Below, one piece after another: positions 5,412 through 32,165 of a DNA stretch of 49,642 nt. The notes below the pieces were generated by a model, which was not told the DNA's origin, did not search any database, and worked only from the letters and a program-made list of their open reading frames with translations. The DNA lies in contig NZ_NFJR01000016.1 in assembly GCF_002159975.1 (NCBI RefSeq), positions 1 through 49,642 of the forward strand, read 5' to 3'. This DNA is from Barnesiella sp. An22 (GTDB taxonomy: Bacteria > Bacteroidota > Bacteroidia > Bacteroidales > Barnesiellaceae). The translations under genes were made by a program, and so were the position numbers. Numbering within the stretch: position 1 is the first letter of the stretch; every line of letters starts with the position of its first letter.

Positions 5412-5429
5412 AATTGTCTGCTTTTTATC

Positions 5430-5437
5430 CAAAGGTA
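5430..5437 (-). promoter_or_regulatory. Putative -7 box of pdxB promoter
   Basis: The minus strand reads TACCTTTG, a full match to the Bacteroidetes -7 consensus TAnnTTTG, 19 bases before the chosen pdxB ATG. No clear -33 TTTG is found at the expected spacing, so this is a one-box prediction implying a very short leader. Confidence 0.4.
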
Positions 5438-5544
5438 CGAAATTTTTGCAGGATTGTATCGAAGAACTATTTTTATATTGTGAAAATAATGGTTTTTCCT
5501 AAAACTATTCTTATGTTTGTAAAATGAAACCCGGGTACACCAGG

Positions 5545-5556
5545 CTTGTCGACAAG
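5545..5556. repeat. 12-base perfect palindrome in the pdxB / DUF4254 divergent region
   Basis: CTTGTCGACAAG is a perfect palindrome 43 bases upstream of the DUF4254 start and within the divergent intergenic region. It could be an operator or a chance palindrome; nothing else in the window shares it. Confidence 0.3.
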
Positions 5557-5598
5557 AGCCTTACAGAAAAACAGGTGTGCTCATAACGATTGGGAACT

Positions 5599-6201: not shown

Positions 6202-6215
6202 CAGGGGTCGGGAGT

Positions 6216-7274
6216 ATGTCGTATAGCAAGGTTTTAATTGTTCGACTGTCGGCTCTGGGCGATGTAGCCATGACCATACCTATTGTTTACTCGGTGTGTA
6301 GGGCCAATCCCGACACGACTTTCGTCATGCTCACCCAGAAGGTGGCTTCGCAACTTTTTCTGCAGGCTCCGCGCAATTTGCAAGTAGTGGTGGCCGATGT
6401 GAAGGGTCGCCACAAAGGTATCGGCGGGCTCTACGAACTGGCCAAAGAGATGCGGGCACTGTCGATTGACGCCGTGGCCGATTTGCACGATGTGTTGCGC
6501 ACGAAGTTCCTGCGAATTTTTTTTAAGATGTGGGGCATTCGGGTAGCCGTCATCGACAAGGGCCGCCAGGAGAAAAAGCAGATTACCGCCCGCCACAAGT
6601 GCGAGGCGTTGCATCCGCTGCGCACTTCGTTCGAACGCTATGGCGAGGTATTCACCGCGTTGGGATTCAAGTTCACGCCCGATTTCGGTTCGCTGTTCGG
6701 CACCGAAAAGGGCGACGAGGGGCTCTACTCTCACTTGACGCCGCCCAAGCAACCGGGCGAGTATTGGGTAGGCATAGCCCCCTTTGCCAAGCATGAGGGT
6801 AAGATTTATCCGCTCGACCGTATGGAAAATGTGGTGGCCAAGCTGGCTGCCGAACCGCATGTAAAGCTGTTCTTGTTCGGGTCGGGCGAACGTGAGCGCG
6901 ACATCCTCTCCGTCTGGCAGGAGCGCTATCCCCATGTAACTTCCCTGGCCGACAAACGTCACGGTTTTGCCATCGAGCTGGCATTGATGAGTCATCTCGA
7001 CGTGATGGTCTCGATGGACTCGGCCAACATGCACTTGGCCTCGCTGGTAGCGGTGCCGGTCGTTTCGGTGTGGGGAGCCACCCATCCCTGTTGCGGATTC
7101 CTGGGGTGGCACCAGAGCGAGGCGAATGTAGTGCAGTTGTCGCTCGATTGCCGTCCTTGTTCCATCTTTGGCAACAAACCGTGCTATCGGAAAGACTATG
7201 CCTGCCTGGATATAGCACCGGCTGTCATTGTCGAGCGGGTGAAAAATCTGCGGGCTCGGGCCTCGCAAGCGTAA
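6216..7274 (+). CDS. Glycosyltransferase family 9 (heptosyltransferase-like)
   Basis: A 352-residue GT-B enzyme of the ADP-heptose:LPS heptosyltransferase family. The N-terminal motif VLIVRLSALGDVAMTIPIV is typical of GT9. The C-terminal nucleotide-sugar region includes VSMDSANMHLASLVAVPVVSVWGATHP. It probably adds a heptose or similar sugar to the lipid A core at the inner face of the cytoplasmic membrane. It follows DUF4254 by 14 bases and is followed by an InaA/Kdo-kinase-like gene, an order that fits LPS-core assembly. The exact acceptor cannot be read from sequence. Confidence 0.88.
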   Translation: MSYSKVLIVRLSALGDVAMTIPIVYSVCRANPDTTFVMLTQKVASQLFLQAPRNLQVVVADVKGRHKGIGGLYELAKEMRALSIDAVADLHDVLRTKFLRIFFKMWGIRVAVIDKGRQEKKQITARHKCEALHPLRTSFERYGEVFTALGFKFTPDFGSLFGTEKGDEGLYSHLTPPKQPGEYWVGIAPFAKHEGKIYPLDRMENVVAKLAAEPHVKLFLFGSGERERDILSVWQERYPHVTSLADKRHGFAIELALMSHLDVMVSMDSANMHLASLVAVPVVSVWGATHPCCGFLGWHQSEANVVQLSLDCRPCSIFGNKPCYRKDYACLDIAPAVIVERVKNLRARASQA

Positions 7275-7351
7275 TAGTAGAGATAGGCTGCCGGGTCGAA
7301 ACCCGAAATTCCCCGGTACGTTTAGTTGATAAATAATTATTCGGGAAGAAG

Positions 7352-8104
7352 ATGAAACTGGTATTGAATCCGGCATATCGCCGGCTCGAGAAGTTTATGC
7401 AGCAACTGCCGCTCGCATTCCCTACGTTGGGCGAGTGTATCTACAAGGCTCGTAACGAGCTTCGTCAATTTTCGTACGAGGGGCAGAACTATGTGGTGAA
7501 GGGGTACAAGGTACCGATTTTCATCAATCGGATAGCCTACACGTTTTTCCGCCCGAGTAAGGCCGAGCGAGCCTACAAGTATGCCCTCAGGCTGCGGGCC
7601 ATGGGCATAGAGACTCCGGCTCCGATCGCTTATATCGAGGTGAAGCGGGGCGGACTGTTGTGGCATTCGTATTTCGTGTCGGAGACCTGTCCCTATACCC
7701 GCATGATGCGCGAGTTCGACGGCGGTGGCGTAGCAGGGCGCGAAGATATACTCAAGGCTTTTGCCGCCTTTACCGTCGAGTTGCACGAGAAGGGGGTGCA
7801 GCATCTCGACTATTCGGCCGGGAATATCTTGTTCGACAAGCAAGACGGGCAGATACGATTCTCGCTTCTCGACCTCAACCGCATGCGATTTCACGCCATG
7901 ACCCCGAAGATGTGTCTGGCCAACTTCAGCCGCTTCTGCCACGACGAGGTCATTGTGCGCTACGTGGTGGCCGAGTATGCCCGGTTGCGGGGTTGGGACC
8001 CGCAGCGTTCGGTCGACGAGGCCCTGGTGGCCTATCGCGAGTTCTGGTCGCGCATCGAGCGGAAAGAGGAGCTGAAGCGCCGTCACAAGAGTTTAGCCTC
8101 GTAA
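7352..8104 (+). CDS. Lipopolysaccharide kinase (InaA/KdkA-like) family protein
   Basis: A 250-residue small kinase-fold protein. The catalytic loop HLDYSAGNILF (about residues 151-161) and the metal-binding LLDLNRMRF (about 171-179) are those of the lipopolysaccharide kinase/InaA family, with N in DYSAGN placed as in the eukaryotic-like kinase loop. The N-terminal VVKGYKVP supplies a likely ATP-binding lysine. Relatives phosphorylate Kdo or heptose in LPS core. Its position 77 bases behind a GT9 heptosyltransferase supports a core-modification role. Note that the metal-binding segment has DLNR, not DFG. Cytoplasmic or membrane-associated; no signal peptide. Confidence 0.82.
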   Translation: MKLVLNPAYRRLEKFMQQLPLAFPTLGECIYKARNELRQFSYEGQNYVVKGYKVPIFINRIAYTFFRPSKAERAYKYALRLRAMGIETPAPIAYIEVKRGGLLWHSYFVSETCPYTRMMREFDGGGVAGREDILKAFAAFTVELHEKGVQHLDYSAGNILFDKQDGQIRFSLLDLNRMRFHAMTPKMCLANFSRFCHDEVIVRYVVAEYARLRGWDPQRSVDEALVAYREFWSRIERKEELKRRHKSLAS

Positions 8105-8169
8105 AATAGCGGGAATCACAAAATAAATTGCTAAGTTTGCTGTCGAAATGCGGTGAACGTAAAACATCT

Positions 8170-9195
8170 GTGGAAAATAATCGCTTCGACATACGAGAAC
8201 AGAGAATATCGGATACCGAACGGGAATTCGAGAAGGCGTTGCGTCCCCTGTCGTTCGACGACTTCAGCGGGCAAGACAAGATAATCGAGAACCTGCGGGT
8301 ATTCGTGATGGCCGCCCGCATGCGTCAGGAGCCCCTCGACCATGTGTTGCTGCACGGCCCTCCCGGGTTGGGTAAAACGACGCTGGCCAATATCGTGGCC
8401 AACGAGTTGGGCGTGGGGTTCAAAATCACATCGGGACCGGTGCTCGACAAGCCTGGCGATCTGGCCGGTCTGTTGACTTCGCTCGAGGAGAACGACGTGC
8501 TCTTTATCGACGAGATACACCGGTTGAGTCCCGTGGTGGAGGAGTATCTTTACTCGGCAATGGAAGATTTCCGCATCGACATCATGATAGACAAGGGGCC
8601 GAGTGCCCGGTCGATACAGATCGAGCTGAATCCCTTCACGCTGGTGGGTGCCACCACCCGCAGCGGTTTGCTCACCAGCCCGTTGCGGGCCCGGTTTGGG
8701 ATTAACTGTCACCTCGAGTATTACGACCACGCTGTGCTGACGCACATCATCGAGCGATCGTCGAGCCTGCTGGGGGTACCCTGCACCCGCGAAGCGGCTA
8801 CCGAGATAGCCATGCGCAGCCGCGGTACACCCCGTATCGGCAACGCCCTGTTACGGCGGGTACGCGACTTTGCCCAGGTGAAGGGGTCGGGCAGTATCGA
8901 CCTCGAGATAGCCCGTTATGCGCTCGAGTCGCTCAATATCGACCAGTACGGTCTCGACGAAATCGACAACAAGATACTCTCGATTATCATCGACAAGTTC
9001 AAGGGCGGCCCCGTGGGGCTCACCACGATAGCTACGGCACTGGGCGAGGACCCCGGTACGCTCGAGGAGGTGTATGAGCCCTATCTCATCAAAGAGGGAT
9101 TTATCAAACGTACGCCCCGGGGACGCGAGGTGACCGACTTGGCCTATACCCACTTGAATCGTCACCGCCTCTCGGAACAGGGTACATTGTTTTAA
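8170..9195 (+). CDS. ruvB: Holliday junction branch migration DNA helicase RuvB
   Basis: A 341-residue AAA+ motor of RuvABC recombinational repair. Walker A is [14 protein letters not shown] near residue 63, Walker B is DEIHRL and sensor 1 is GATTRSGLL. The arginine-finger region and the C-terminal winged helix ([19 protein letters not shown]) complete the protein. The start is the GTG at 8170 ([15 protein letters not shown]); the frame also opens at a TTG at 8128, but the added residues do not look like RuvB. It lies 66 bases downstream of the kinase gene and 20 bases upstream of a flippase gene, so this repair gene is embedded in envelope genes. Confidence 0.96.
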
Positions 9196-9215
9196 TCGAA
9201 AAAATATAGACGCTT

Positions 9216-10718
9216 ATGGCCGGCATGAAGAGTTTGGCAAAGGATACCGCAATATACGGTTTGAGCAGTATATTGGGGCGGTTTCTCAACTGGTGTTTTG
9301 TATTCCTCTATGTAAACGTGTTGAAGACCACGGCCGAGTATGGTATCGTGACCAACCTCTACGCCTACATGGCCTTGCTGTTGATTATTCTCACCTACGG
9401 CATGGAGACGGGCTTCTTCCGCTTTGCCAACGACAAGGAGGAGAAAGACCCGCAGAAGGTCTACACCACCGGCCTCATCTCGCTGGCTACCACCTCGACC
9501 CTCTTTTTCGTGCTCGTGTGGCTCTTCCTCTCGCCGCTGTCGAGGCTGCTGGGCTATCCCGGGCATGAAGATTATGTGCTGATGATGGCCCTGATTATCG
9601 CCATCGATGCCTTCACGGCGTTGCCCTTTGCCTACCTGCGTTACCAGCGCCGCCCCATCCGGTTTGCCGCCGTCAAGTTGCTGTCGATTTTTCTCAACAT
9701 TGCGTTGAATCTCTTTTTTATCCTGCTCTGCCCGTGGCTCTATGGCATTCACCCCGAGTGGATTTCGTGGTTCTTCGACCCCGACTTCCTGGTGGGGTAT
9801 ATCCTGGTGTCGAACGTCATCAGTTCGGGCGTGGTGCTGCTGGTGCTTTTTCCCGAGATATTCCGGGTGCGCTACCGGTTCGACGGCCGTCTGCTGTCGT
9901 GCATGCTCAAATACTCCTTCCCGTTGCTTATTCTGGGAATTGCCGGCATCATGAACCAAACCTTCGATAAGATGTTTTATCCTGTGCTGGCAGGGAGTCG
10001 CCCCGACGCCATGTCGGAACTGGGTATATACGGGGCAGTTTACAAGATTGCGATAGTGATGGTGATGTTTACACAAGCCTTTCGATTTGCCTACGAGCCC
10101 TTCATCTTTGCGCGAAACAAGGAGGCGGGCAACGAGAACAAGAAGTCCTATTCCGAGGCGATGAAATATTTTATCATCTTCGGCCTCTTCATCTTCCTGG
10201 CGGTGATGTTTTATATCGACATCGTGCGCTTCTTCATGCCGGCGACCTACTGCACGGGGTTGAAGGTGGTGCCTATCGTCATGCTGGCCGAACTCTTCTT
10301 CGGCATCTTCTTCAACCTGTCGTTGTGGTACAAGCTCACCGACCGCACGCAGTGGGGGGCCTGGTTCTCGCTGTTCGGGTTTGCCATTACGGCGGTAATC
10401 AATATCGTGGGTGTGCCCCGTTACGGCTATATGGCGTGTGCCTGGGCGGCATTTGCCTGCTACCTGTGCATGATGCTGGCCTCGTTTTTCATCGGGCAAC
10501 GGGTCTATCCCATCAAGTACGAGCTGGGCAATGCGCTGCGTTACACGCTGCTCACGGCCGTTCTCTATGCGGTAGGTACTCTGGTGCCCATCGAGTCGCT
10601 GGCGTTGCGCCTGGCCTTCCGCACGGTGCTCTTGGCCCTGTTCCTGATCTATCTGTTCCGCCACGATTTGCCGTTGCGCGAAATTCCGGTATTGAATCGT
10701 TTTGTGTCCAGGTCGTGA
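9216..10718 (+). CDS. Polysaccharide biosynthesis protein / oligosaccharide flippase (MOP superfamily)
   Basis: A 500-residue integral membrane protein with about 13-14 hydrophobic segments across its length. The N-terminal stretch MKSLAKDTAIYGLSSILGRFLNWC is typical of Wzx-like flippases in Bacteroidetes. It probably moves undecaprenyl-linked oligosaccharide across the cytoplasmic membrane. It follows ruvB by 20 bases and precedes a DUF389 membrane protein. It is not linked to a full capsule operon here, so the transported glycan is unknown. A lipid II flippase (MurJ-like) role is less likely given the Wzx-like sequence, but cannot be excluded. Confidence 0.85.
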   Translation: MAGMKSLAKDTAIYGLSSILGRFLNWCFVFLYVNVLKTTAEYGIVTNLYAYMALLLIILTYGMETGFFRFANDKEEKDPQKVYTTGLISLATTSTLFFVLVWLFLSPLSRLLGYPGHEDYVLMMALIIAIDAFTALPFAYLRYQRRPIRFAAVKLLSIFLNIALNLFFILLCPWLYGIHPEWISWFFDPDFLVGYILVSNVISSGVVLLVLFPEIFRVRYRFDGRLLSCMLKYSFPLLILGIAGIMNQTFDKMFYPVLAGSRPDAMSELGIYGAVYKIAIVMVMFTQAFRFAYEPFIFARNKEAGNENKKSYSEAMKYFIIFGLFIFLAVMFYIDIVRFFMPATYCTGLKVVPIVMLAELFFGIFFNLSLWYKLTDRTQWGAWFSLFGFAITAVINIVGVPRYGYMACAWAAFACYLCMMLASFFIGQRVYPIKYELGNALRYTLLTAVLYAVGTLVPIESLALRLAFRTVLLALFLIYLFRHDLPLREIPVLNRFVSRS

Positions 10719-12325: not shown

Positions 12326-14758
12326 TTACTTCACGATCACTTTCACGGTCTCGGTGTAGTCGGCACCCTTGACAACCATGAAGTAGATGCCCGGCGTCAG
12401 GTCGTCGGTCGAGACGAAGGTGATGGTCTCTTTGGCCCGTTCGGCTTTCACCAAAGCACCCTGCATCGAATAGATTTCGATGCTTTCGGCCTGGTCGGCA
12501 GCTACGGCCATCTTTTGGCCCTGGTTGACGGGGTTGGGAGCTACCAGTACGCGGCTTACCGTAATCTCGTCGATAGCCGTTCCATCCTTGCCATAGACTT
12601 CGAGTTCGGCAATCGGGGTAGTCATCCATAATCCGAGGCCGATGGTAAAGGCTACAGCCTTGGTGTCGCGGGCTTCGGGCAGGTTGTACGACACGTCGGT
12701 ACCCGCGGCTGCGGTGTTGACAACGTCGAAGTCGGTACCGTTTTCCGAAACTTCAAATTTCACTTCGGTAGGCAGTGCGGACTCGATATTGTCGGGCTCC
12801 AGGAAGTAGGCCTGGAAGCGGCTGACACTCTTCGGGGCGTCGAAGGTGTAGACAAAGCGTACCGACTGACCAGCTGCGGCGTAGAAGTCGGGCAGGTAGG
12901 CCGTCGAGTGGTTGCCGTCGGTCAGGTTGGTGGCCACCTCGCCCGAGGCAGCTATTTCGCCGCTCACGTCCTCGATGTCCTTACCCAGGGCCGAGTTGTG
13001 GTACCAGATGCCCTCCTTGGCCATGTTCTCGGAGTAGCCCGTCAGGCCGCTGGTGCGCTGGTACATGATGTTTCCACCCAGCGAGTATCCCAGGCGGAAG
13101 CGCTCGGCAAAGGTGTTGTGTCCCAAAATCATACCCTCGATGTTGTGCTCGTAGTAGCGTTGTTCCATCGACTTGTACGACTCCTTGCTCTGGTCGTCGA
13201 TACCGTTGGTGCGGTTCTGCTCTTCGATGCTGGTATCGTAGTAGTCGAAGGAGTATTTACCTGTGGCATAGAGCCAGGGGGTGAAGTCGATCTTGATCGT
13301 GTAGTAACCGAAGGCGCGCCAACGCTCGTCCATGTTGCTGTACTGGTAGTTGATGTAGTAGGGATTCAACTCCTGCAACGTGGGGTTCACGTAGTAGATG
13401 TGACGCTGGGTGTCGCTGCGGAAGGTCTTCAGGTCGTTCAACGGGATGTTGCGGGGAATGTAGAGCAGTTGGTATACCTCGCCGCCCTTACCGTATTGGG
13501 GACGGTCGGTGGCCTTGGTGCGGCTCAGCGAGATTTTCGAGTCCATGCTCAGGTATTTGTTCATCTTCATGCCGGCCTTGAGGTCGATGTTGATTTTGCT
13601 CAACCCCTCGCCGTCGAAGAGGCCCTGGCTCTCGGTGCTGCCGAACGAGGTCCGGTAGTTGTAGTTCTCTTCGGCCTTGCCGATGGCTACGTTGTGGGTC
13701 TGGGTAAAGCCGGTGTTGAAATATTGGTCGAACTTGTTGCCGTAGTCCTTGTACTGCAGCTCCTGACCCAGCCAGCCGGTATAGGTGTGGCCGTCGAGCG
13801 GGGCGCCGAAACTCTCGAATACGTTCGGGTCGAATACGCCGCCTTTACCTTGTCCGTAGGTGGTCTGCTGCTCGAGCGAAGAGGCTACGCTGGTCCAGGT
13901 GAAGTTGCCCGAGTAGGTGACGCCGAATCCTTTCTCCTTGACACCGCGTTTCGTGGTGATGAGGATGACACCGTTTCCGGCTCGTGAACCGTAGAGGGCG
14001 GCTGCATTCGGGCCCTTCAGTACCGAGATCGACTCGATGTCTTCGGGGTTGATGTCGACAGCCGAGCCTCCCCGGTCGACACCGCCGAAGAGCGAAGCGT
14101 CGGAGCTGCTGTTGTCGCTGAAGGGTACACCGTCGACAACCCACAGCGGCTGGTTGTTGTCGGTCAACGACGAGTTACCGCGCAGGGTAATCTTGGTCGA
14201 ACCGCTCAAACCGGTGCCGGCCGTGTTCATTTGCAGACCGGCCACCTTGCCGCTCAAGGCTCCGATGACCGAGGGGTCGCCGGTCGTGTTCAGTTTGTCG
14301 GCCTTGATGTCTTGCACGGCATAGCCCAACATCTTCTTTTCACGTTTGATACCGAGAGCCGTTACCACGACCTCGTCGAGATTCTGGGTGCTTTCGCCCA
14401 TCTCGATGGCAAAGAAGGTACGGTCGCCTACCTTCACACTCACGGGGTTGTAGCCGACGTAGCTGAATTCGAGTACGGCTTCGGGACTCGAAACCGACAG
14501 ACCGAAGTTTCCGTCCAAGTCGGTAATCATGCCATTGGTCGTTCCCTTTTCCACTACACTTACGCCGATTAACGGCTCGCCATTCTTATCCTTGACGGTT
14601 CCAGAGACAGCAATCTTTCCTTGCACGACTCCCGAAGCCGATGAATCGGCCATGGAATCCGCGCTCTTTTCGGTTGCATAAGCTGTCAGGCTGGAAGAAA
14701 ATAAAGCGGCACAAAGCAACACACAGTTTGCTCCTGTCATTTTCAGTTTAAATACCAT
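12326..14758 (-). CDS. Chimeric outer-membrane protein: truncated SusC/RagA receptor fused to discoidin-like domain and T9SS-type sorting tail
   Basis: An open frame of 810 residues. Order: signal peptide (1-28, hydrophobic core VLLCAALFSSSLTA); carboxypeptidase-regulatory-like domain (about 50-120); SusC-type plug (about 130-255, with DEVVVTALGI and LRGNSSLTDNNQPLWVVDGVP); then the first part of a TonB-dependent barrel to about residue 590. There the receptor stops abruptly, where SusC proteins normally run on to about 1000 residues. After the junction near 12970-12990 comes a beta-rich F5/8-type-C-like domain (about 600-720, LTDGNHSTAYLPDFY). Next is a C-terminal sorting domain resembling Por_Secre_tail (about 733-810, APNPVNQGQKM, IEIYSMQGALV and LTPGIYFMVV). 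No SusD gene is adjacent. A half barrel should not form a normal pore, and a sorting tail on a receptor is contradictory. It may be an in-frame deletion scar of a glycan-utilisation locus, and its product may be non-functional. Confidence 0.8.
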   Translation of the reverse strand: MVFKLKMTGANCVLLCAALFSSSLTAYATEKSADSMADSSASGVVQGKIAVSGTVKDKNGEPLIGVSVVEKGTTNGMITDLDGNFGLSVSSPEAVLEFSYVGYNPVSVKVGDRTFFAIEMGESTQNLDEVVVTALGIKREKKMLGYAVQDIKADKLNTTGDPSVIGALSGKVAGLQMNTAGTGLSGSTKITLRGNSSLTDNNQPLWVVDGVPFSDNSSSDASLFGGVDRGGSAVDINPEDIESISVLKGPNAAALYGSRAGNGVILITTKRGVKEKGFGVTYSGNFTWTSVASSLEQQTTYGQGKGGVFDPNVFESFGAPLDGHTYTGWLGQELQYKDYGNKFDQYFNTGFTQTHNVAIGKAEENYNYRTSFGSTESQGLFDGEGLSKINIDLKAGMKMNKYLSMDSKISLSRTKATDRPQYGKGGEVYQLLYIPRNIPLNDLKTFRSDTQRHIYYVNPTLQELNPYYINYQYSNMDERWRAFGYYTIKIDFTPWLYATGKYSFDYYDTSIEEQNRTNGIDDQSKESYKSMEQRYYEHNIEGMILGHNTFAERFRLGYSLGGNIMYQRTSGLTGYSENMAKEGIWYHNSALGKDIEDVSGEIAASGEVATNLTDGNHSTAYLPDFYAAAGQSVRFVYTFDAPKSVSRFQAYFLEPDNIESALPTEVKFEVSENGTDFDVVNTAAAGTDVSYNLPEARDTKAVAFTIGLGLWMTTPIAELEVYGKDGTAIDEITVSRVLVAPNPVNQGQKMAVAADQAESIEIYSMQGALVKAERAKETITFVSTDDLTPGIYFMVVKGADYTETVKVIVK

Positions 14759-15180
14759 AGAACACTTATTAGATTTTTATATGATTAGATTCCTCTTTAT
14801 ATCTTGTTTTTCAAATAATTAGAATAGGTACATAACTCTCGTAAGGTATAATTCGACAAAAAAATTATACAGGTTAAAACTATTTTACAAAAATTTACTG
14901 TTAATATTTGGGTTTGCGATTATTAACATAAAATTGGATTTCTCGCATACCTGTTGATACAGGCGGGTAGAGCCGGTATGGCCCTTGAGTAGGAAAGGGG
15001 GAAAGTGTTGATTGACAGTTTGCAAGTGATAAATCGAAAGAGCCGTAACAGGTTCCGCATTTGCGGGCTTGTTACGACTCTCTATTGGACGATTCGAGGA
15101 AGTTTGGTTTCAATTTGAAAGTAGCGAGGTCTTTGTTTCAAGAGGGAACCGTGCACTTTCACCGAATGGGATTATTGTGC
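14759..15180. other. Intergenic region between TIR-Sel1 gene and SusC-like chimera
   Basis: This 422-base stretch has no supportable gene. The part next to the chimera (14759-14950) is AT-rich and presumably holds its promoter, but no full TAnnTTTG box was found there. The part next to the TIR gene holds one hairpin (15039-15081). Confidence 0.6.
15039..15081 (-). terminator. Probable terminator of the TIR-Sel1 gene
   Basis: The arms AGAGCCGTAACA...CCGC (15039-15058) and GCGGGC..GTTACGACTCT (15063-15081) pair with two or three mismatches around a short loop. Read on the minus strand the stem is followed by TTTCGATTT. It lies about 100 bases past the TIR-Sel1 stop, so it could end that transcript before the chimera gene. 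Confidence 0.5.
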
Positions 15181-18100
15181 TCAACAGTATTTGTCGAGGC
15201 GGTCGAGTGCCTGTTGGGCATCTTCGTATCCCAGTTCGAGCGCCTGTTGATACAGTTTTTTGGCCTGCGGGTAATTCTGCTCGACTCCCAGTCCGTATTC
15301 AAAAGCTTCGCCCAGTACCTGATAGGCCCGGCCATACTTCTCGTTCAGGCAGGGTTCCAGCAGGTCGTAGGCTTTCTCCGGGTCTTGTTGCGTGCCTTGT
15401 CCGTAGAAAAACATTCGGGCCAGGTCGATGCGGGCCGACATGTTTCCGTGCTCGACGGCCTTTGCCAGGTAGGAGCAGGCCCGTTTGTAATCTTTGGGCA
15501 GACCTTTGCCCTCGAGGTAGTTGAGTGCCAGGTAGCGCATCGAGCCCGAGTCGCCCAGTTCGCACCCTCTGAGGTACATCTTGTTGGCCAACTCGATATT
15601 CTGGGCCGTTGCGGTACCTTGTTCGTAGAGCAGCCCCAACAGGCAGCAGGCCTCGGGGTAGTTGGCATCGTAGGCCTTTTGCAGATAGTCGAGGGCCACC
15701 TTCATGTTGCGGGCTACGCCTTCGCCAAAGTAGTAGATGCGTCCCAGATGGTACATGGCCCAGGCGTTGCCCTTGTCGGCAGCCTTTCGCAGGTAGAAGG
15801 CGGCCATGGCGTTGTTCTGGGGAACGCCTTGCCCCATCATGTAGAGCGAGGCCATGCCTTTGATGGCGTTTATCTCGTCGGCATCGATACCCTTCTGGTA
15901 GTAACGTTTGGCCTCGGCATAGTCGCGAATCTCGTCGGGGCCGTTGCGGTAGATGTCGCCGATGAAGCCCAGGGCGTAGGTGTATCCCCGTTGGGCCGCT
16001 TTTTTCAGGTATTGCAGTGCCAGTTGGGGGTCATGTATTTCGTTGGGACCGTTCCAGTAGAGGAACCCCAGGTTGAAGTAGCCGTAGACGCTGTCGCGCT
16101 CGGCTGCCTGTTTGTACAGTTCGAGCGCCTTCGTCTCGTCGGCAGCGACGCCCCGGCCGTAGAAATACATGTCGCCCAGTTGGTTGAACGACTCGGCGTG
16201 ACCCTTTTCCGCCAGGTGCGAGAAGTAGGCGAAGGCCGTCTTGAACTGAGCCTTGTCGAGAGCCTCCTTGGCCTCGTTGAACAGTTCGTCGTCGCTCTTG
16301 TCGGGAATCTCGACCTCGCTGGTGTTCTCGTCGACCAGGTTCTGTTGCAGCTGTTCGAGCCACTCCCGGGCATTCTCGAAGCCTTGCGCGATTGCCTTCT
16401 GGTAGTATTCGATTGCCTTGCGGGTATCCTTTTCGAGTTGCCCGATGCCGTCGGTGTGGAGGCGCCCCAGCCAGTAGGAGGACTTGCCGTATCCCTTGTC
16501 CGAGGCCGTCGAGAAGCAGGCGATGGCTTTGGAGATGTTGGCGGGGACAATCTCGCCGAAGAGGTAGAGCTCGCCTATCTTGTTGATGGCCGCCTCTACA
16601 CCGTTGTCGGCCGCCAGCTGGTAGTATCGGATAGCCGCTTCGGGGTTGGGCTCTATCCCTTCGATACCCCCTTCGAAGAGGAGACCCAGTTGGAAAGAGG
16701 CCTGGTGGTTGCCCCGTCGGGAGGCTTCGGTGAGGAGTGCGACCTCGCGTTGGCTGTCGGGCTGCAGGCCGCCGCGTCCGTTGTGCAGGTAGTAACAGAA
16801 GCGTCGCATGGCGTTGGAGTCGCCCTGCTCGATAGCCTTTTGCAGGTAGTAGACTGCCATCCGCTCGTTTTCGTCGTTCTCCTCGGCATTCATGTAGATA
16901 CCTCCCAGGAAGTTGTTGGCCTGTCCCGTTTCGTCGTATTCGGCGGCGCGTTCGTAGTACTTCTTGGCCAGTTCGATGTCGCAGGGAACCCCCAGCCCGG
17001 TCTCGTAAATGAGCCCGATGTGAATCAGAGCACTGGCATCTTTGGGATACTCTTCGATGTATTGCTGGTAGTAGTCGAGAGCCTGCCGGGCCCCCTCCTC
17101 GGTATCGAGCATGTCGTAGTATCGGGCCAGGTCGCGGTTGGCGGCCGTGTAGCCTTGCTCAACGGCCAGACGGAGCATGGCCAGCCCCTTGTCGATGTCG
17201 CGGGGCACCTCGTCGGCTCCGCGCAGGAGCATGAACCCGCAACTGTACGAACCGTAGCCCGACCCCTTTTGCGAGGCTTTTGCAAAGTAGTCGTAGGCCT
17301 TGGCCATGTCGGCGGGTACCGACTCGCCGTTGAAGTAGAGGTCGCCCAGGTCGTTCAAGGCTTGGATGTATCCCAGATTGGCCGCCTGGGTGAGCAGATT
17401 GACATATCGTTCGGTCTCTTTCGCCTCGAGCGCCTGACGGGCGTCGAGGTAGGCCTGTTTGGCAAAGGGGTCTACCCCTTGCTCTTCGTCGGGCGAGGCT
17501 TGGTCGGCCTCCATCTGGTTGAGCAGCTGGAAGGCGCTCTCGTTGCCCATGGCGGCCGCCTGGCTCAGGTATTCCATCGCCTTTTCGCGGTTGGGGGCGG
17601 TCCCCTGGCCGCGCAGGTACATGAATCCTACCGAGTAGAAGGCGTAGGGATAGCCCTCGTCGCAGGCCTTCAGGTAATATTCCAGCGCTTTGGCGAAGTC
17701 TCGTTCTACCCCCTTGCCGGCATAGTAGAGGTCGCCCAGCTCGGTCAGGGCCCGGTAGTGGTTGGCCTCGGCCGCTTTTCCATACCAGTAGAGCGCCTTT
17801 TCGTAGTCGACGGTGAGCCCGTCTTCGGCCGAGTACATGTCGCCCAGGTTGCACATGGCGTCGGGCAGATTCTGCTCGGCCGCCTTGGTAAACCAGTTGG
17901 TGGCCCTCACGGGGTTTACCTTGACATTCCAGCCGAAGCGGTAGGCTTTGCCCATGTAGTTCTGGGCGTAGGAGTATCCGGCCTCGGCGGCCTGTTGTAT
18001 GAGACTGAAACCCTTTTCGGTCTCACCGGCAACCTCTTTCTCAATCATGAGCATGCCCAGCCGGTAAAGGCACGAGGGGATACCGGCGTTAGCTCCCCGC

Positions 18101-20853
18101 TGGTACCATTCGGTGGCTTTGAGTATGTTTTTCTGCACGCCGTCGCCCTCTTCGTAGATGAGGCCGAGGGTGAAGAGGCAGGTAGGCTCGTTGTTGCGGG
18201 CGCCCATCTCGTACCATTTGATGGCCTCCTTCATGTCGCGACGACAGCCGAAAGAGCCGTAGTAATGGTATTCGCCCATGTTTTTCTGGGCCTCGGTGTA
18301 GCCGTTTTCGGCGGCGAGTTTCATGTATTTGATGACTTGAGCATGGTCCTGCTCGACAAAGAGCCCCTTCATGTACATGAAAGCGAGGGAGTATTGGGCG
18401 TAGGCGTTGTTGCTTTGGGCGGCATTGGAGAACCAGTAGTAGGCCTGTTCGTAGTCGACCTCGACCCCGGTGCCGTAGAAGTAGATGTCGCCCAAGCGGT
18501 TGGCCGCCTCGGCTTCACCCATCTGAGCCGCTTGCAGCAGCGGGGCGATGGCCTCGGTGTACCGTTCGATGTCGCACAGGTCGATGCCACGTTGCAGAAA
18601 CTCGTGGCTGAGGCTCTGGGTCATGCCTGCCTGTCGGCCGGCCTGCTCGAACTTCAGGGCCTTCTGGTAGAGTTCGCTGGCCTGGGGGGCGGCATAGTCC
18701 TGGGGTGTCATCTTTTCGACGGCAATGCGCATGAGTCCCTCGTAGGCAATGTCGGCATGTTCGCCCTCGGCGATATGGGTCAGATAGGCGATGGCCTTTT
18801 CGTATCCGTTTTCCTGTCCCGACTGCATGTAGAGTTCGGCAATGGCCTTGATGGCGTCGACATATCCAGCCTCGGCCGCTTTCTGGAAATACTCCTCGGC
18901 CTTCTGCAGGTTGGGGCTGACTACCCCCTTGGCCTCGTAGTAGGCCAAACCCAGGAAGTAGTAGGCGTCGGGGATTTGCAGGGCCTCGGCCTTGCGGAAG
19001 TAGTCCATCGCCTTGAATTCGTCCATCTCGGTGCCGCGGCCGTAGAAGTAGAGCTCGCCCAGTTTGCAGAGGCAGATGCCGTCGTTGAGTTGGGCGCCCC
19101 GCTTGCACCAGTCGAAGAGTTCGCTCAGGCGGTCGGGGTCGTCCTGGATGTGGCGGATGACCTCGTGGATGGCATCGATGTCGTTGCGCTTGGCAGCTTT
19201 GATGTAGAACTCGAGCTCGCGGCCGGCGAAGGAGGCGGGGGCCTCTCCGCTCTCAATGAGTTGGGCTATCTTGAGGTAGGCGGGCGAGAAGCGCTGCTCG
19301 GCCGAGGCCAGATAGAGGCTCCAGGCCTTTGGCTTGTTGACCGGGGTGCCGAAGCCCCCTTCGTACATGGTGGCCAGGTAGTAGAGCCCGAGGCTGTCGC
19401 CCAGGTCGGCCGACTTGGTGAACCAGCGGAATGCCTGGGAATTGCCTTTGTTGTCGGGCATGTTGTAGTAGATGAGGGCCAACCCGTTCATGCCGTCGGG
19501 GTTCCCCATCTGCGCGGCACGGTAGTAGGCTTGTTGTGCCTTCTCGAGGTCCTGGTATTTCTCGTCGAACTGATAGAGAAGGCCCAGTTCGAAGTAGGCG
19601 TCGATATACTCCTTGTCGAGGGCGCGCTGTATCCACTCGAGTCGTTTGTCCGAGTTGCCCCGTTCCATCTCGAGGTAGGAGAGCTTGATCATCGACCACT
19701 CGTCGTCGCGCTCTTCGGCCAGTTGGCGATATGTCTTTTCGGCCTCTTCCCGGTTTATGGGCAGGCCGTAGCCGTTTTCCTTCATGTAGGCAATCTCGCC
19801 CAGGGCCATGATGTTGTTCTGGGCGGCGGCATTTTTGTAGTAGGAGAGGGCCGTGTCGTAGTTTTGCTCGACATGGATGCCGTTTTCGTACATGTTGCCC
19901 AGCAGGTATTGGGCGTAGGAGTTGCCTTTCTCGGCCGCTTTCTGGAACCATTCGTAGGCCTTCCCGTAGTCGCGCCCTTTCAGGCTGCCCCGATAGTAGA
20001 CCCTCCCCACGATGACCTGGGCGAAGTCCATGCCCTCTTCGGCATAGGGAAGGAAGGTATCCAGAATTTCGGGCCACAACTGGTAGCCCCGCACCTTGTT
20101 GCAGAGGATGTCGCAGAGCAGATGCTGAGCCTCGATGTTGTTGGCGACGGCCAGCTTCAACAGCATCTCCGAGGCCTCTTTGTATTTGTGGTTGCGGTAG
20201 AGCTTCACGGCCTCCTGGTAGATGGCCGGGCTGACTCCGCTGCCGGTGGCTGCCACCTTGTTGGGGCTCTTTCCTTCACCCCCTTCGGCCGCAGCGCTTG
20301 TGGGGCGGAACTCGGTCCGGAGCGGAGCTGGTTGGGGCTCGGGCTGACGCTCGCTGAGCAGTTGTGCCTCGAGTGCCTGGTCTATCTTCGAGTCAATGAT
20401 GTTGAGGATGCTCGTAATCATGTGGTCCCACTGGGCCTTGTCGTTGAGGTAGTTGCACAGGGGCTGCGTCTCCGAGGGGTGAATCTGCCGCTGGTAAATC
20501 CAGTCGATGATGCGCTTTGACTTCTCGGTGATGTTGCCGATGAGCAGAGGCACGATTTTCATGTCGTTCTGCTCGACCTGCTCCCGTATCCATACCAGTT
20601 CCTTGTTGACGATATAGTCCGACGAGACGAAGCTCTCGCTGATGAGCAGAATGGAGATGTGCGCCTGGACGATGTGGCTGTGAATCTCTTCGTCCCACTT
20701 TTCGCCGATGACCAAACCTTCGTCGAACCATATTTCGGCGTCGGGGCTGGTGTGGCGTCTGATGCGGGGAATGAGGTGAATATTACCGGGACCTTCGAGA
20801 ACCCACTCCTTGTCTTCGTGGGCATAACTGATGAAAATGCGAGCTTTAGCCAT
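15181..20853 (-). CDS. Giant TIR-domain protein with about forty Sel1-like repeats
   Basis: A 1890-residue protein with no signal peptide. Residues 1 to about 145 form a TIR domain: ARIFISYAHEDKEWV (strand A/box 1), AEIWFDEGLVIGEKW (BB-loop region), ISILLISESFVSSDY and NKELVWI, where Glu85 sits at the place of the catalytic glutamate of NAD-cleaving TIRs. A P/E/G-rich linker (about 165-210) leads into Sel1-like (TPR-type) repeats of about 36 residues (LGDMYFYGRGV..D..KA..YY.KAA..G type) running to the C terminus. By eye there are about forty. They fall into four blocks starting near residues 215, 720, 1130 and 1520. Acidic linkers precede the last two (QASPDEEQGVDPF and NTSEVEIPDKSDDE). Expected role: sensing or scaffolding by the solenoid and NAD hydrolysis or signalling by TIR, which is inference. 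GC content matches the core genes, so it need not be recently acquired. Confidence 0.88.
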   Translation of the reverse strand: MAKARIFISYAHEDKEWVLEGPGNIHLIPRIRRHTSPDAEIWFDEGLVIGEKWDEEIHSHIVQAHISILLISESFVSSDYIVNKELVWIREQVEQNDMKIVPLLIGNITEKSKRIIDWIYQRQIHPSETQPLCNYLNDKAQWDHMITSILNIIDSKIDQALEAQLLSERQPEPQPAPLRTEFRPTSAAAEGGEGKSPNKVAATGSGVSPAIYQEAVKLYRNHKYKEASEMLLKLAVANNIEAQHLLCDILCNKVRGYQLWPEILDTFLPYAEEGMDFAQVIVGRVYYRGSLKGRDYGKAYEWFQKAAEKGNSYAQYLLGNMYENGIHVEQNYDTALSYYKNAAAQNNIMALGEIAYMKENGYGLPINREEAEKTYRQLAEERDDEWSMIKLSYLEMERGNSDKRLEWIQRALDKEYIDAYFELGLLYQFDEKYQDLEKAQQAYYRAAQMGNPDGMNGLALIYYNMPDNKGNSQAFRWFTKSADLGDSLGLYYLATMYEGGFGTPVNKPKAWSLYLASAEQRFSPAYLKIAQLIESGEAPASFAGRELEFYIKAAKRNDIDAIHEVIRHIQDDPDRLSELFDWCKRGAQLNDGICLCKLGELYFYGRGTEMDEFKAMDYFRKAEALQIPDAYYFLGLAYYEAKGVVSPNLQKAEEYFQKAAEAGYVDAIKAIAELYMQSGQENGYEKAIAYLTHIAEGEHADIAYEGLMRIAVEKMTPQDYAAPQASELYQKALKFEQAGRQAGMTQSLSHEFLQRGIDLCDIERYTEAIAPLLQAAQMGEAEAANRLGDIYFYGTGVEVDYEQAYYWFSNAAQSNNAYAQYSLAFMYMKGLFVEQDHAQVIKYMKLAAENGYTEAQKNMGEYHYYGSFGCRRDMKEAIKWYEMGARNNEPTCLFTLGLIYEEGDGVQKNILKATEWYQRGANAGIPSCLYRLGMLMIEKEVAGETEKGFSLIQQAAEAGYSYAQNYMGKAYRFGWNVKVNPVRATNWFTKAAEQNLPDAMCNLGDMYSAEDGLTVDYEKALYWYGKAAEANHYRALTELGDLYYAGKGVERDFAKALEYYLKACDEGYPYAFYSVGFMYLRGQGTAPNREKAMEYLSQAAAMGNESAFQLLNQMEADQASPDEEQGVDPFAKQAYLDARQALEAKETERYVNLLTQAANLGYIQALNDLGDLYFNGESVPADMAKAYDYFAKASQKGSGYGSYSCGFMLLRGADEVPRDIDKGLAMLRLAVEQGYTAANRDLARYYDMLDTEEGARQALDYYQQYIEEYPKDASALIHIGLIYETGLGVPCDIELAKKYYERAAEYDETGQANNFLGGIYMNAEENDENERMAVYYLQKAIEQGDSNAMRRFCYYLHNGRGGLQPDSQREVALLTEASRRGNHQASFQLGLLFEGGIEGIEPNPEAAIRYYQLAADNGVEAAINKIGELYLFGEIVPANISKAIACFSTASDKGYGKSSYWLGRLHTDGIGQLEKDTRKAIEYYQKAIAQGFENAREWLEQLQQNLVDENTSEVEIPDKSDDELFNEAKEALDKAQFKTAFAYFSHLAEKGHAESFNQLGDMYFYGRGVAADETKALELYKQAAERDSVYGYFNLGFLYWNGPNEIHDPQLALQYLKKAAQRGYTYALGFIGDIYRNGPDEIRDYAEAKRYYQKGIDADEINAIKGMASLYMMGQGVPQNNAMAAFYLRKAADKGNAWAMYHLGRIYYFGEGVARNMKVALDYLQKAYDANYPEACCLLGLLYEQGTATAQNIELANKMYLRGCELGDSGSMRYLALNYLEGKGLPKDYKRACSYLAKAVEHGNMSARIDLARMFFYGQGTQQDPEKAYDLLEPCLNEKYGRAYQVLGEAFEYGLGVEQNYPQAKKLYQQALELGYEDAQQALDRLDKYC

Positions 20854-20932: not shown

Positions 20933-20940
20933 CAAAGATA
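20933..20940 (-). promoter_or_regulatory. Putative -7 box for the TIR-Sel1 gene
   Basis: The minus strand reads TATCTTTG, an exact match to the Bacteroidetes -7 consensus TAnnTTTG, about 80 bases before the ATG and downstream of the hexosaminidase terminator. No good -33 box was found at 19-21 bases. It supports separate transcription of the TIR gene. Confidence 0.45.
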
Positions 20941-20984: not shown

Positions 20985-21018
20985 ACACAAAAGGCTGCCT
21001 GCGGGCAGCCTTTTGTGT
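20985..21018 (-). terminator. Rho-independent terminator of the GH20 gene
   Basis: A perfect 15-base inverted repeat (arms 20985-20999 and 21004-21018, ACACAAAAGGCTGCC with loop TGCG) gives a stem with a G+C core and an A/T-rich base. It starts 18 bases after the hexosaminidase stop on the minus strand. It separates this gene from the TIR gene. Confidence 0.85.
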
Positions 21019-23724: not shown

Positions 23725-25536
23725 ATGTCGATTTTGAATCTGAAGTATCCTGAAGCAAATTTTCTTGAGAACTTGAGAAATAGGTTCGATGAGGAATTTC
23801 CCGGTGTAGTGGTTGGGAAGATTCAGTATTGGGGGAATGCTCGTTATTATCATCACTATTATATACAATTTACGCCTGCGAATTTTTTACCGGGTATTCA
23901 TTTCGAATATTATGTACAGAATAGGGTGGGTAGACTTGAATTTCATTTGGAGCCTGACCCGAACAATGATGAGCAGTGCCGTTTGTATAGGGATATGGGT
24001 ATATCGTTGATGCATGGTCTTTTGGACCAGGGTGTCGAGTGGAATCCACAACTTGAATCTTTCTGGCTTAAAGACTGTCGTATCGATAGCCTGGATTCTT
24101 TGCTGAAGAGTTACCAGGAATTGAGTTGCCTGGTGGAACCTTTGTTGGCGAAATCGCTTATGGCCAATCGTGAAATCAAGTTAGAGCTATTGTCGTATCC
24201 CAAACAAGAGACCGGACATGTAGCGTTAATAGAACGAGGGGAGGACGTTTCGGTGAGGATCATGAATCTGGCCGAGGTTATGAAACTCGACCTGTCTCTT
24301 CCCGACTATCAGCGTGACTATTGTTGGGAAGATAGAAATATCACCGATTTATGGAACAGTCTCCTGAAGATAGAACCGGATAATCCATTTCACTTGGGAA
24401 CTGTTATTCTCCACGATAACCAGCAGCATTATGATATTATTGATGGCCAGCAACGGTTGATAACGCTTACCCTTATTCTTCTGGCTTTGGGCTATGACGA
24501 TTATTTGCCGCTGCTGAACGAATCGTACGAGTCGGCAGAGGCTCAAGACCACATAGCTAACTGTAAATATGTAGTGAAGATTCTGGTACAGTCATGCAAG
24601 AATCGTGAAGCTCTGCTCGACAAGATAGCCCGTCAGGTTTCGTTTGCCGTGCTTGTAGTCAGTGAGGCTAATCTGGATCTTGCATATACCTTCTTTTCGA
24701 ATCAAAACTCAAAGGGCGTGCCATTGACCGATTTTGACCTGCTGAAGGCTCATCATTTACGATTTATTGCTGACGAAAAGCAGGCCGAGCATGTGGCTGT
24801 CAAGTGGAACAAGATATTGCAGCTGCCCCCTGTATATCACGATAGTAACGCCTTGTTCCGTACAATTGGAATACATATATACCGGTTAAGACGGTGGATG
24901 CGCAAAAGGGGATCAGCCGAGAATAGTTACCGATATATACAGCATGAATACCAGGCTGCACCCTCGATGCCCGATATTCCGCCGTTTGGAGAGCGGCTCG
25001 ATTTTTATGAAAAGATACAAGGGGGCACCCATTTTTTTATGTATGTAGAGACCTTCATCCAACGCTATGAAGATTTTGTGCGGGAACCGTTTGTTCAGGA
25101 AGTGAGGGATAGGCTGTCCTACGGCCCTTACGAGATATTTGCCGATACCCTGGCAACATTGCTATTCGGGTATTATCTTAAGTTTGGACGTTCCTATCTG
25201 GTCGAAGCATTCTTTTGTTTTTCTCAAATGATGGCTTTGTATCGGTACAATTCGGACCGGGTTGCCACTAACGGGTCTGGGGTGAGAGATTGGGCCATGA
25301 ATAGCGAATTTCTGCTTATGATCGACCAAGCCTCTTCTCCCACATTCTTTTTGGCCGAAGCTCTTGCCGCCAGTGAAAACAAGTTCCAGATAAACAGTGG
25401 ACTATATCTGCCGGAAACCAAAGGGGTGAAGTGGGGCATGTATGTGGCCCTTAGAAATATCTGGAACTATGCTTTGCCCTTGGTTTCGGATACGACGATA
25501 AGAAATAAAATTATAGAAGAGTATGGTATACAATAA
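23725..25536 (+). CDS. DUF262 (GmrS-like/ParB-fold) protein with N-terminal extension
   Basis: A 603-residue cytoplasmic protein. Residues 1 to about 165 form an unassigned domain (HFEYYVQNRVGRLEFHLEP looks beta-rich and faintly recalls DUF4268-type restriction accessory domains). The DUF262 domain starts near 185: LPDYQRDYCWE (about 192), the ParB-like catalytic DIIDGQQRLITL (about 240) and NSKGVPLTDFDLLKAHHL (about 330). The rest is helical and I see no HNH motif. DUF262 proteins are the NTP-hydrolysing halves of GmrSD, SspE and BrxU nucleases that attack modified phage DNA. Here the stop overlaps the start of a second DUF262 gene by 14 bases, so the two probably act as a pair. GC is lower than in the neighbouring core genes. 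Confidence 0.82.
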   Translation: MSILNLKYPEANFLENLRNRFDEEFPGVVVGKIQYWGNARYYHHYYIQFTPANFLPGIHFEYYVQNRVGRLEFHLEPDPNNDEQCRLYRDMGISLMHGLLDQGVEWNPQLESFWLKDCRIDSLDSLLKSYQELSCLVEPLLAKSLMANREIKLELLSYPKQETGHVALIERGEDVSVRIMNLAEVMKLDLSLPDYQRDYCWEDRNITDLWNSLLKIEPDNPFHLGTVILHDNQQHYDIIDGQQRLITLTLILLALGYDDYLPLLNESYESAEAQDHIANCKYVVKILVQSCKNREALLDKIARQVSFAVLVVSEANLDLAYTFFSNQNSKGVPLTDFDLLKAHHLRFIADEKQAEHVAVKWNKILQLPPVYHDSNALFRTIGIHIYRLRRWMRKRGSAENSYRYIQHEYQAAPSMPDIPPFGERLDFYEKIQGGTHFFMYVETFIQRYEDFVREPFVQEVRDRLSYGPYEIFADTLATLLFGYYLKFGRSYLVEAFFCFSQMMALYRYNSDRVATNGSGVRDWAMNSEFLLMIDQASSPTFFLAEALAASENKFQINSGLYLPETKGVKWGMYVALRNIWNYALPLVSDTTIRNKIIEEYGIQ

Positions 25537-27346
25537 GATAACACCGGAACTTATTGCCGGGAAAAACATTCGGTTCTGTATCCCTCTATATCAAAGATTG
25601 TTTACGTGGCCGACTTCTCAGGTAGAGCAGTTGTTGGATGATTTGCGGTCTCATTTTGACAAGAATCCGGACAAGCCCTATTATTTGGGAATGATTACGG
25701 TTGTGCACCGGGAAGGTCGGGAAGATCGATGGGACCTTATTGACGGGCAGCAGCGTATAACGGTACTGATGTTGCTCTCCATCGGGTTCTTGCTCAGTGG
25801 CAGGACCGATTCGACTGAAGAGTGGATTGCGTTTTTTGATGATTCCAATCGGTTGTATTTCAAAGGCCGGAGCCAGGACCGTGAATTCTTAAAATACCTC
25901 GCGGATCGTAAGCCTTCGACCTATCGGAATATCAATATGGAGAATGGGCTCTCTTGTATCGAGGAATATCTGAGAAAACATTTCAGTGAGGAGGGCGCTC
26001 TCGACTTGTTTGCCAGTCGGGTATATCGTAATCTGACGCTGTTTGTTACCGAACTGCCAGGCCACTATGTTGCGTCACCGGCTTCTTTGAACGAATATTT
26101 CGAGGCAATGAACTCGAGCGGCAAGTCGCTTGAGCAACATGAGATTCTCAAAGTCGATTTGTTGCGTGGTCAAGATGATAATGATAAATTGCGCTTTACC
26201 CGCCTTTGGAACACGGTGTCGAATTTCGAGTTGCCATTGATTAAGGAATCGGAGAAAATCGACCGTGGAGAGCAAATCCGGAGATATAAAGAGGCTATAT
26301 CCATGTGCCGTGAAGGCGATTTCGACGGTCTGATACGCAACTTATGTTCCAAGACAAATGAGCGGGATTCCCGTGGATCCAAGTCTATTGCCGAAATAAG
26401 AGTAGAGAAAAGGGATTTCGGGAAACCCTCCTACGACGACAGGGAAGATGCGATTATCTCGTTCCCTCAGTTTTTGCTGATGATTTTGGCTATCCACCTG
26501 AATGAAGACCGCATAGCCCGGATTCACCCCTCGAAGTTGCTCGATACTTTCAGAGATAATCCCTTGACGTGTGTTCCCCGCTTTTATCAGCAACTTGTTC
26601 TTTATCGGCTTTTGATGGATTTATATGTGGTGAGAATGAAATACTCTTCCTCATCGGGCTATCACAAACTCATGGTTAAAGACGAAGAAAATCTCTGTCA
26701 TGAGCATGAACGGTTAAAACAATTCGAATCGATGTTCGATGTCTCTACCGAGCCTCATCGCTGGATATTACCCTTGTTGAAGTATGTTGCAGGGCTCGAT
26801 CATGAACCCGGACAGGCAGAGTTGCTTGCTTTTTTGATGAACCTGGATAAAGAGTTGAATCATCAAGGACAATGCCCTGATGTATCGAAATTGGGTTACG
26901 AGGCCAAGCCTCGGTATTGGCTGTGGCGGCTCGATTATGCTTTGTGGGAGAAGGTGCTGCTCGAGGGCAAAGACGCGTTGGGATTTTCAAATCTTGATGC
27001 AGAGTCTGTTCGGCAATACGAGTTTCGTCAGAATCGCTCTATCGAACATCTGCATCCACAAAATGAAAATTATAACGACAAATGGTCTTGGCACGACATT
27101 AACTCATTGGGAAACCTGGCTATGATTTCGCAGAGTTTCAATTCTGCACAAAGCAATCTGCCGGTGCATGTAAAGTTTGCCAATCTGGAGGTCCAGGTCA
27201 ACAGCCGTAACCTGCAAAGTATCAAACTGTATCTTATGTATCTCGAAGCCAAATGTTCCGACCAGGAGTGGACCGTGGAAACCATGCGATTGCATGAACG
27301 CAAGATGATGAAAATATTGAAGGAGAGTATCGAAGCCGCTGGCTAA
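25523..27346 (+). CDS. DUF262 protein with C-terminal DUF1524/HNH-like nuclease domain
   Basis: A 607-residue protein. DUF262 is at the N terminus: CIPLYQRLFTWP (about 18-29), DLIDGQQRITVL (about 72-83) and the MNSSGKSLEQHEILKVDLL segment (about 195-213). After a long helical middle part, the C terminus carries an HNH-like core: SIEHLHPQNEN near residue 506 and NSLGNLAMISQSFNSAQSN near 527. These match DUF1524 arrangements in which the His in the first motif and the later Asn/Ser-rich motif build the beta-beta-alpha-metal nuclease. Predicted activity: nucleotide-dependent DNA cleavage, perhaps of modified phage DNA, as for the GmrSD and SspE relatives. The start overlaps the upstream DUF262 gene by 14 bases. 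Confidence 0.82.
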   Translation: MVYNKITPELIAGKNIRFCIPLYQRLFTWPTSQVEQLLDDLRSHFDKNPDKPYYLGMITVVHREGREDRWDLIDGQQRITVLMLLSIGFLLSGRTDSTEEWIAFFDDSNRLYFKGRSQDREFLKYLADRKPSTYRNINMENGLSCIEEYLRKHFSEEGALDLFASRVYRNLTLFVTELPGHYVASPASLNEYFEAMNSSGKSLEQHEILKVDLLRGQDDNDKLRFTRLWNTVSNFELPLIKESEKIDRGEQIRRYKEAISMCREGDFDGLIRNLCSKTNERDSRGSKSIAEIRVEKRDFGKPSYDDREDAIISFPQFLLMILAIHLNEDRIARIHPSKLLDTFRDNPLTCVPRFYQQLVLYRLLMDLYVVRMKYSSSSGYHKLMVKDEENLCHEHERLKQFESMFDVSTEPHRWILPLLKYVAGLDHEPGQAELLAFLMNLDKELNHQGQCPDVSKLGYEAKPRYWLWRLDYALWEKVLLEGKDALGFSNLDAESVRQYEFRQNRSIEHLHPQNENYNDKWSWHDINSLGNLAMISQSFNSAQSNLPVHVKFANLEVQVNSRNLQSIKLYLMYLEAKCSDQEWTVETMRLHERKMMKILKESIEAAG

Positions 27347-31748: not shown

Positions 31749-31790
31749 ATGCTTAGCTTTATAGATATTAATATCTACAAAAGTAACATA

Positions 31791-31876: not shown

Positions 31877-31923
31877 TAATCATATTTTTGTTGATTATGA
31901 CCATATAAGATACAAATAATCAT

Positions 31924-32157: not shown

Positions 32158-32165
32158 ATGAATAT

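Follow-up and report, generated by a model that had tools for sequence, protein, structure and literature searches.

The window, a 49,642-nucleotide stretch of a Barnesiella sp. An22 contig, carries on its minus strand a single intact frame (15181..20853, ATG to TGA) that encodes a protein of 1890 amino acids, here termed TIR-Sel1. From the N-terminus, this protein consists of a TIR domain (aa 1-165; 20359..20853), supported by Pfam TIR_2, AlphaFold, Foldseek and a dN/dS of about 0.02, a linker that is weakly conserved by pairwise identity (aa 166-206; 20236..20358), and a solenoid of Sel1 repeats that continues to the C-terminus. All features described for this gene lie on the minus strand.

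On the promoter side, TATCTTTG (20933..20940), 79 nt upstream of the ATG, resembles the Bacteroidota -7 box (consensus TAnnTTTG), in agreement with the original prediction that the gene has its own -7 box. The same prediction placed terminators on both sides. Hairpins are indeed found between the GH20 gene and TIR-Sel1, at the end of the upstream unit (20988..21015; z -5.06), and downstream of the TIR-Sel1 stop codon (15037..15083; z -5.04), but a generic terminator scan lists neither of them. Judged from the promoter-like box and the flanking hairpins, TIR-Sel1 in the window is a separate transcription unit.

Pfam assigns residues 6-119 to TIR_2 (E 1.2e-10; 42.4 bits against a cut-off of 28). 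An AlphaFold model of the domain, computed from a 43-row alignment (pLDDT 86.8, pTM 0.85), has the TIR fold, the outcome on which the predicted N-terminal domain had been staked beforehand. When the model was submitted to Foldseek, all 16 matches with E ≤ 0.001 were TIR domains or TIR-containing complexes, among them plant L6, RPP1, RUN1, TLR1 and SPARTA, with TM-scores by query of 0.42-0.60. By fold and by a profile score above the curated cut-off, TIR-Sel1 belongs to the TIR-domain proteins. Four residues, F7, D44, S78 and E85, are invariant in 43/43 aligned TIRs. The Glu85 codon occupies 20599..20601; in the model the residue lies on helix 79-96, between strands three and four, and in profile alignments it falls on the glutamate of Cat1, AbTir and 7uxr. 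Glu85 had been proposed to occupy the catalytic-glutamate position, and by alignment it is the putative catalytic glutamate expected of TIR NADases. NADase or signal-making activity of TIR-Sel1 is plausible. Secretion into a host was also considered: the protein starts with a strand of the TIR fold, and a simple hydropathy scan of TIR-Sel1 gave no membrane-like segment. An NTPase domain was not found in the protein.

The Pfam Sel1 model matches the whole protein with E 1.1e-194 and 624.5 bits (cut-off 30.7) over 23 stretches, and TIR-Sel1 is therefore a Sel1-repeat protein, with tandem repeats of about 36 residues above the cut-off. A repeat HMM made from the family recovers 36 units in the window protein at E<0.01 and 42 at E<10, close to the forty or so that had been counted by inspection. 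With repeat borders drawn by hand from the HMM matches, the 36 clear units fall into the four anticipated blocks, nine per block: block 1 (aa 207-739; 18637..20235), which holds degenerate units as well, block 2 (aa 740-1128; 17470..18636), block 3 (aa 1129-1505; 16339..17469) and block 4 (aa 1506-1890; 15184..16338). The similar starter segments described for the blocks are present in all four, and the acidic linkers described for the last two are seen before block 3 (7 acidic and no basic residues in 26 aa) and at the start of block 4 (5 acidic and 1 basic in 22 aa). Sensing of a trigger by this solenoid is plausible. In a comparison of the blocks with one another, block 2 matches block 3 best in register and does not clearly do so with block 4; an origin of the solenoid by block duplication is thus only weakly supported and was set aside.

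Relatives, selection and chromosomal site

The full architecture recurs in relatives, for which a homologue search had been proposed. Full-length TIR-Sel1 is encoded in five of nine genomes of the genus (G000, which contains the window, and G003, G005, G006 and G007) and, outside the genus set, on contig L005. The proteins of the four other genus genomes and of L005 have 1886-1893 aa, and every one is intact. L005 is a 15.6-kb contig titled Rickettsiales and is probably a mis-binned Bacteroidales piece. Pairwise identity is 88-96% in the TIR domain, 15-50% in the linker (aa 166-205) and 60-90% in the blocks. Mean dN/dS is 0.02 for the TIR domain, 0.5 for the linker and 0.06-0.10 for the solenoid blocks; saturation of dS (mean pS 0.76-0.80) makes these values rough. 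Indels outside the linker are limited to 1-3 residues, and no repeat has thus been gained or lost. Because the repeat number is constant despite saturated synonymous sites, the aligned sequences indicate that the solenoid is conserved rather than diversifying, under purifying selection without repeat turnover. The lack of turnover is therefore evidence against a role of the solenoid in a fast arms race, and a conserved or host-derived trigger would fit purifying selection better than a fast-evolving phage trigger.

Such a long solenoid behind one TIR domain had been called uncommon, and our phylum-wide hunt bears this out: none of the 66 other TIR frames inspected carried Sel1 repeats, many of these frames being truncated where their loci end and some genes occurring twice in the set. 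Close relatives of the TIR domain were found neither on phage records nor in the scanned viral contigs, and the 19 plasmid records with TIRs all fell below 60% identity, the best reaching 31%.

In the five genus genomes, TIR-Sel1 is flanked on one side by a gene of 500 aa and on the other by a GH20 gene, identified by Pfam in the window copy. A 453-aa gene accompanies the 500-aa gene at some of these sites; we take the 500-aa and 453-aa products to be flippase-like and DUF389-like, respectively. Additional genes at the site are a TonB-receptor ORF in the window and two AraC-type genes in G005. The site is empty in G002, where 51 nt lie between the DUF389-like gene and the GH20 gene, and the corresponding region holds TonB-receptor-like genes in G004 and, as read by eye, what is presumably a DpnII-type restriction-modification set in G001 and G008. 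The flippase gene is present in 9/9 genus genomes and the GH20 gene in 7/9.

A RyR-domain protein and a channel with a shared distribution

Domains of the RyR family are found in animal calcium-release channels, and regulation of these channels by cADPR is a long-standing topic of discussion. On L005, one strand encodes in succession an AAA protein, a NYN protein, a 716-aa protein without a Pfam match, a RyR-domain protein of 101 aa (PF02026; 129.6 bits against a cut-off of 27.4) and TIR-Sel1. The 716-aa frame shares 4 nt with the RyR frame, and 137 nt separate the RyR gene from the start of TIR-Sel1. On the opposite strand, upstream of this cluster (positions 1-2285), are a Cas6b-like gene and a SH3/PARP-like frame.

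Within the genus, PF02026 proteins occur in five of the nine genomes, the same five that encode TIR-Sel1. Directly behind the RyR gene in all five is the gene for a channel of about 720 aa, related to the 716-aa protein of L005; the channel is missing from the four genomes without TIR-Sel1. Co-occurrence of TIR-Sel1 with the RyR-channel pair gives a Fisher p of 0.008 for nine genomes, phylogeny ignored; two other window genes lack the pattern (a GmrSD-like gene in 2/9, the GH20 gene in 7/9). The pair is unlinked to TIR-Sel1 in all five genomes that carry both, and in the window genome it lies on another contig (C55, about 72131-74587). A second RyR-domain frame of that genome (C23:110320-110586; L118) has no adjoining channel.

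On the flippase tree, the presence pattern amounts to three changes, of which starred branches force at least two in the DNA tree and one in the protein tree. G003 and G005 group together in the channel tree, in conflict with the TIR-Sel1 and flippase trees, which join G005 with G006; the channel locus has therefore also moved or recombined, and inheritance of the two loci is not simply shared. A MutS-like neighbour of the pair is present in 9/9 genus genomes, and the distance from it to the 407-aa gene that flanks the pair is 190 nt in G002 versus 2569 nt in G000. With short gaps and flanks in place, the TIR-Sel1 and RyR-channel sites are thus both empty in G002. Given the perfect co-occurrence with the unlinked pair in the genus and adjacency on L005, the original prediction that TIR-Sel1 works as a single gene probably does not hold.

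The small RyR protein on C55, of 98 aa, scores 115.7 bits against PF02026 (cut-off 27.4). Among 14 small RyR proteins, 11 have the pattern H-x2-W-x21-H-x16-D, and threonine replaces the second histidine in the remaining 3. According to PMC13232231, the phage RyR-domain protein RyDEP degrades or binds 2'/3'cADPR and contacts its ligand through H75, W78, H100 and D117. The genus proteins share PF02026 and the same intervals between the four residues, a match of spacing and not of aligned sequence. Unlike RyDEP, the genus RyR gene is bacterial and is paired with a channel that ends in a RyR-like domain. Instead of acting in counter-defence, its product may form part of the channel, serve as a sensor, or act as a brake by sequestering a messenger.

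For the channel, a profile of 23 rows (A3) matches GsuK (1.5e-4), a RyR1 construct (3.9e-4), DMI1 (0.001) and CASTOR (0.004). An AlphaFold model (pLDDT 86.6) retrieves with Foldseek GsuK (1.5e-8), including NAD- and ADP-bound entries, as well as CASTOR, DMI1, Slo1 and MthK, at TM-scores by query of 0.29-0.32 that denote a superfamily-level likeness. Pfam matches of the window genome's copy to RCK and RyR are below the cut-offs. Residues E646, R649, W650, H687 and D704 are kept in 23/23 rows and H647 in 22/23. With a pore module and an RCK fold in the model, the C55 protein is a predicted RCK-gated channel. Its modeled layout of pore and RCK gating ring is that of GsuK, CASTOR/DMI1 and Slo1, from which it differs by the added C-terminal RyR-like domain and by the pore loop. 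The selectivity filter of classical potassium channels is of the TxGYGD type; such a filter is absent from the channel, whose pore loop, read by eye, is FADPGNQ.

The channel occurs in 23 of 393 genomes of the order, 20 of them outside the genus, and 20 loci from 19 of these 20 genomes were compared with control stretches. A TIR gene lies near 7/20 channels versus 1/20 controls (one-sided Fisher 0.022) and a separate RyR gene at 8/20 channel loci versus 1/20 controls (one-sided Fisher 0.010), the controls being imperfectly matched, with 4/20 short and one located on a channel-locus contig and holding a RyR gene. The seven TIR genes (L154, L155, L156, L159, L166, L167 and L169) were confirmed by Pfam; four are immediate neighbours of the channel and the rest are one to five frames off. 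None of the seven carries Sel1 repeats. At the other 13 loci, a TIR gene was not found in the fetched stretch. Among order genomes outside the genus, 16 have a window-like TIR and 20 have the channel, with zero overlap. At L165, three RyR-bearing frames stand in a row on one strand (5047-10105): the channel, a 726-aa frame ending in RyR and a small RyR gene.

Beyond the order, 19 of 395 phylum genomes, G000 not counted, matched the channel profile, and 16 loci were examined. Fifteen of these homologues are without a C-terminal RyR domain, as judged from the EHxRW motif and a model of the channel C-terminus, since the initial RyR HMM misses most C-termini; the C-terminal model was built from an alignment that includes 17 order loci. 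A TIR gene is near none of the fifteen. The sixteenth, L222, has RyR (56.8 bits) and TrkA_N (47.5) matches and is preceded, at a distance of 4 nt, by a TIR gene. A partial channel, a RyR gene and upstream genes of the 400-aa type are also seen at 7375-8490 of L227 (MT836850.1), an unverified 8.5-kb faecal record titled 'Bacteriophage sp.' that is probably bacterial DNA filed as phage.

A candidate Thoeris-like circuit

Our preferred reading, to which we give a little under an even chance, is that TIR-Sel1 both senses and makes the signal in a Thoeris-like circuit with a RyR-gated channel as effector. A trigger would be bound by the Sel1 solenoid, whereupon the TIR domains would cluster and convert NAD+ to an ADP-ribose-type messenger. 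This messenger would be bound by the RyR domains of the small protein and of the channel C-terminus, and the tetrameric RCK-gated channel would open, the ion flux leading to growth arrest or cell death. The purpose would probably be phage defence. The architecture, the TIR fold, the invariance of Glu85, the channel domains and fold, the co-distribution, the L005 linkage and the TIR neighbours are computed results; from these we infer catalysis, messenger, gating, defence and trigger. Against the circuit stand the modest co-occurrence p from nine genus genomes, the unlinked loci in the genus and the discordant channel tree, as well as the lack of overlap between TIR-bearing and channel-bearing order genomes outside the genus, the absence of Sel1 from all seven channel-side TIRs, the 13 of 20 channel loci where no TIR was found in the fetched stretch, the sub-threshold RCK and RyR matches of the window genome's channel and the 3 of 14 RyR proteins that lack the second histidine.

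In Thoeris (a ThsB TIR with ThsA), as would be the case for TIR-Sel1, an ADP-ribose-type signal is made for a separate effector. The effectors reported in PMC11204291 are SIR2-SLOG and membrane-bound TM-macro proteins. No ThsA, whether SIR2-SLOG or macro, adjoins TIR-Sel1: the window neighbours are the GH20 and TonB-receptor genes (Pfam), and the flanks in relatives hold ordinary genes. Here the candidate effector is instead an unlinked RCK/RyR channel. A Sel1 solenoid of 1680 residues is attached to the TIR domain, and the PADLOC ThsB1 model matches only the TIR part of the protein.

TIR-Sel1 could instead be a stand-alone abortive-infection NADase, in which the solenoid senses and the TIR domain simply depletes NAD+, the RyR-channel pair working with a different partner or with none. 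The separate transcription unit with its -7 box and flanking hairpins is in keeping with this, as are the NAD-depleting Cat1 and AbTir among the best profile matches of the TIR family. Repeat sensors on NADases are moreover already known: Avs5, described in PMC12931631 as a SIR2-STAND protein with C-terminal TPR/Sel1-like repeats, likewise joins an N-terminal NAD-acting domain to a repeat sensor. TIR-Sel1 differs from Avs5 in that no NTPase domain was found, TIR replaces SIR2 and the repeat array is far longer. Similar in layout are the actinobacterial group-6 TIRs, which have many C-terminal TPRs (PMC7075850), and the solved TIR-TPR protein 9m0n: in each, a single large polypeptide runs from an N-terminal TIR into helical repeats. 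Their repeats are TPR and not Sel1, the match to 9m0n is weak (E 0.004), and the text of PMC7075850 does not mention 'Sel1'. A stand-alone NADase would make the perfect co-distribution and the L005 linkage coincidental, and we regard it as rather unlikely.

A conserved stress- or envelope-signalling switch, responding to an internal trigger through the same TIR-to-RyR-channel chemistry or through TIR scaffolding and not serving phage defence, would agree with the strong purifying selection, with repeats that do not turn over, with a chromosomal site that is fixed between one pair of neighbours across five species, and with the absence of relatives from phage records and scanned viral contigs. 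Dispensable defence-like genes, however, typically show repeated joint losses and empty sites of this kind, and in other systems TIR and RyR domains are part of immune signalling derived from NAD; such a switch is in our judgment unlikely. That the distribution is shared by chance or common ancestry, with the TIR domain inert or an adaptor, is very improbable: there are only nine genomes and unlinked loci, and a few-change accessory pattern can be common to unrelated genes, but the L005 linkage, the TIR neighbours of related channels and the invariant Glu85 speak against it.

The Thoeris-like circuit may extend further, into a bacterial equivalent of the cADPR-ryanodine-receptor axis in which a solenoid-triggered TIR makes cyclic ADP-ribose that opens a RyR-domain-gated channel. 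Modules with swappable TIR sensors would then form a new Thoeris-like class across Bacteroidota, represented here by two loci kept or lost jointly; we propose this only tentatively, as distinctly short of an even chance. TIR signalling with separate effectors, as in Thoeris, and repeat sensors on NAD-acting proteins are already known. In the literature searched we found neither a pairing of RyR channels with TIR genes nor a RyR-channel as TIR effector; nucleotide-centred conflict systems were surveyed by comparative genomics in a 2015 paper that may discuss RyR. If correct, the circuit would mean that a bacterial ADP-ribose messenger gates an ion channel via RyR domains. TIR effectors would gain an ion-channel class, orphan bacterial RyR domains would gain a function, and phage RyR-domain proteins that act against TIR signals would be accounted for.

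The window holds further genes of restriction and defence type. Beside the GH20 gene, on the plus strand (23725-27346), are two adjoining GmrSD_N genes, the second also with GmrSD_C, which constitute a type IV restriction-like pair. The low-GC region 30534-49473 contains a type I restriction-modification set (N6_Mtase/HsdM, YhcG nuclease, specificity subunit and HsdR) together with AbiH, Mob_Pre and two phage-type integrases, and is likely an integrated defence-carrying element. On the minus strand at 12326-14758, an 810-aa frame has a SusC/TonB plug at its start and F5_F8 and Por_Secre_tail at its end; because its parts match separate ORFs in G004, this frame may be a fused remnant.
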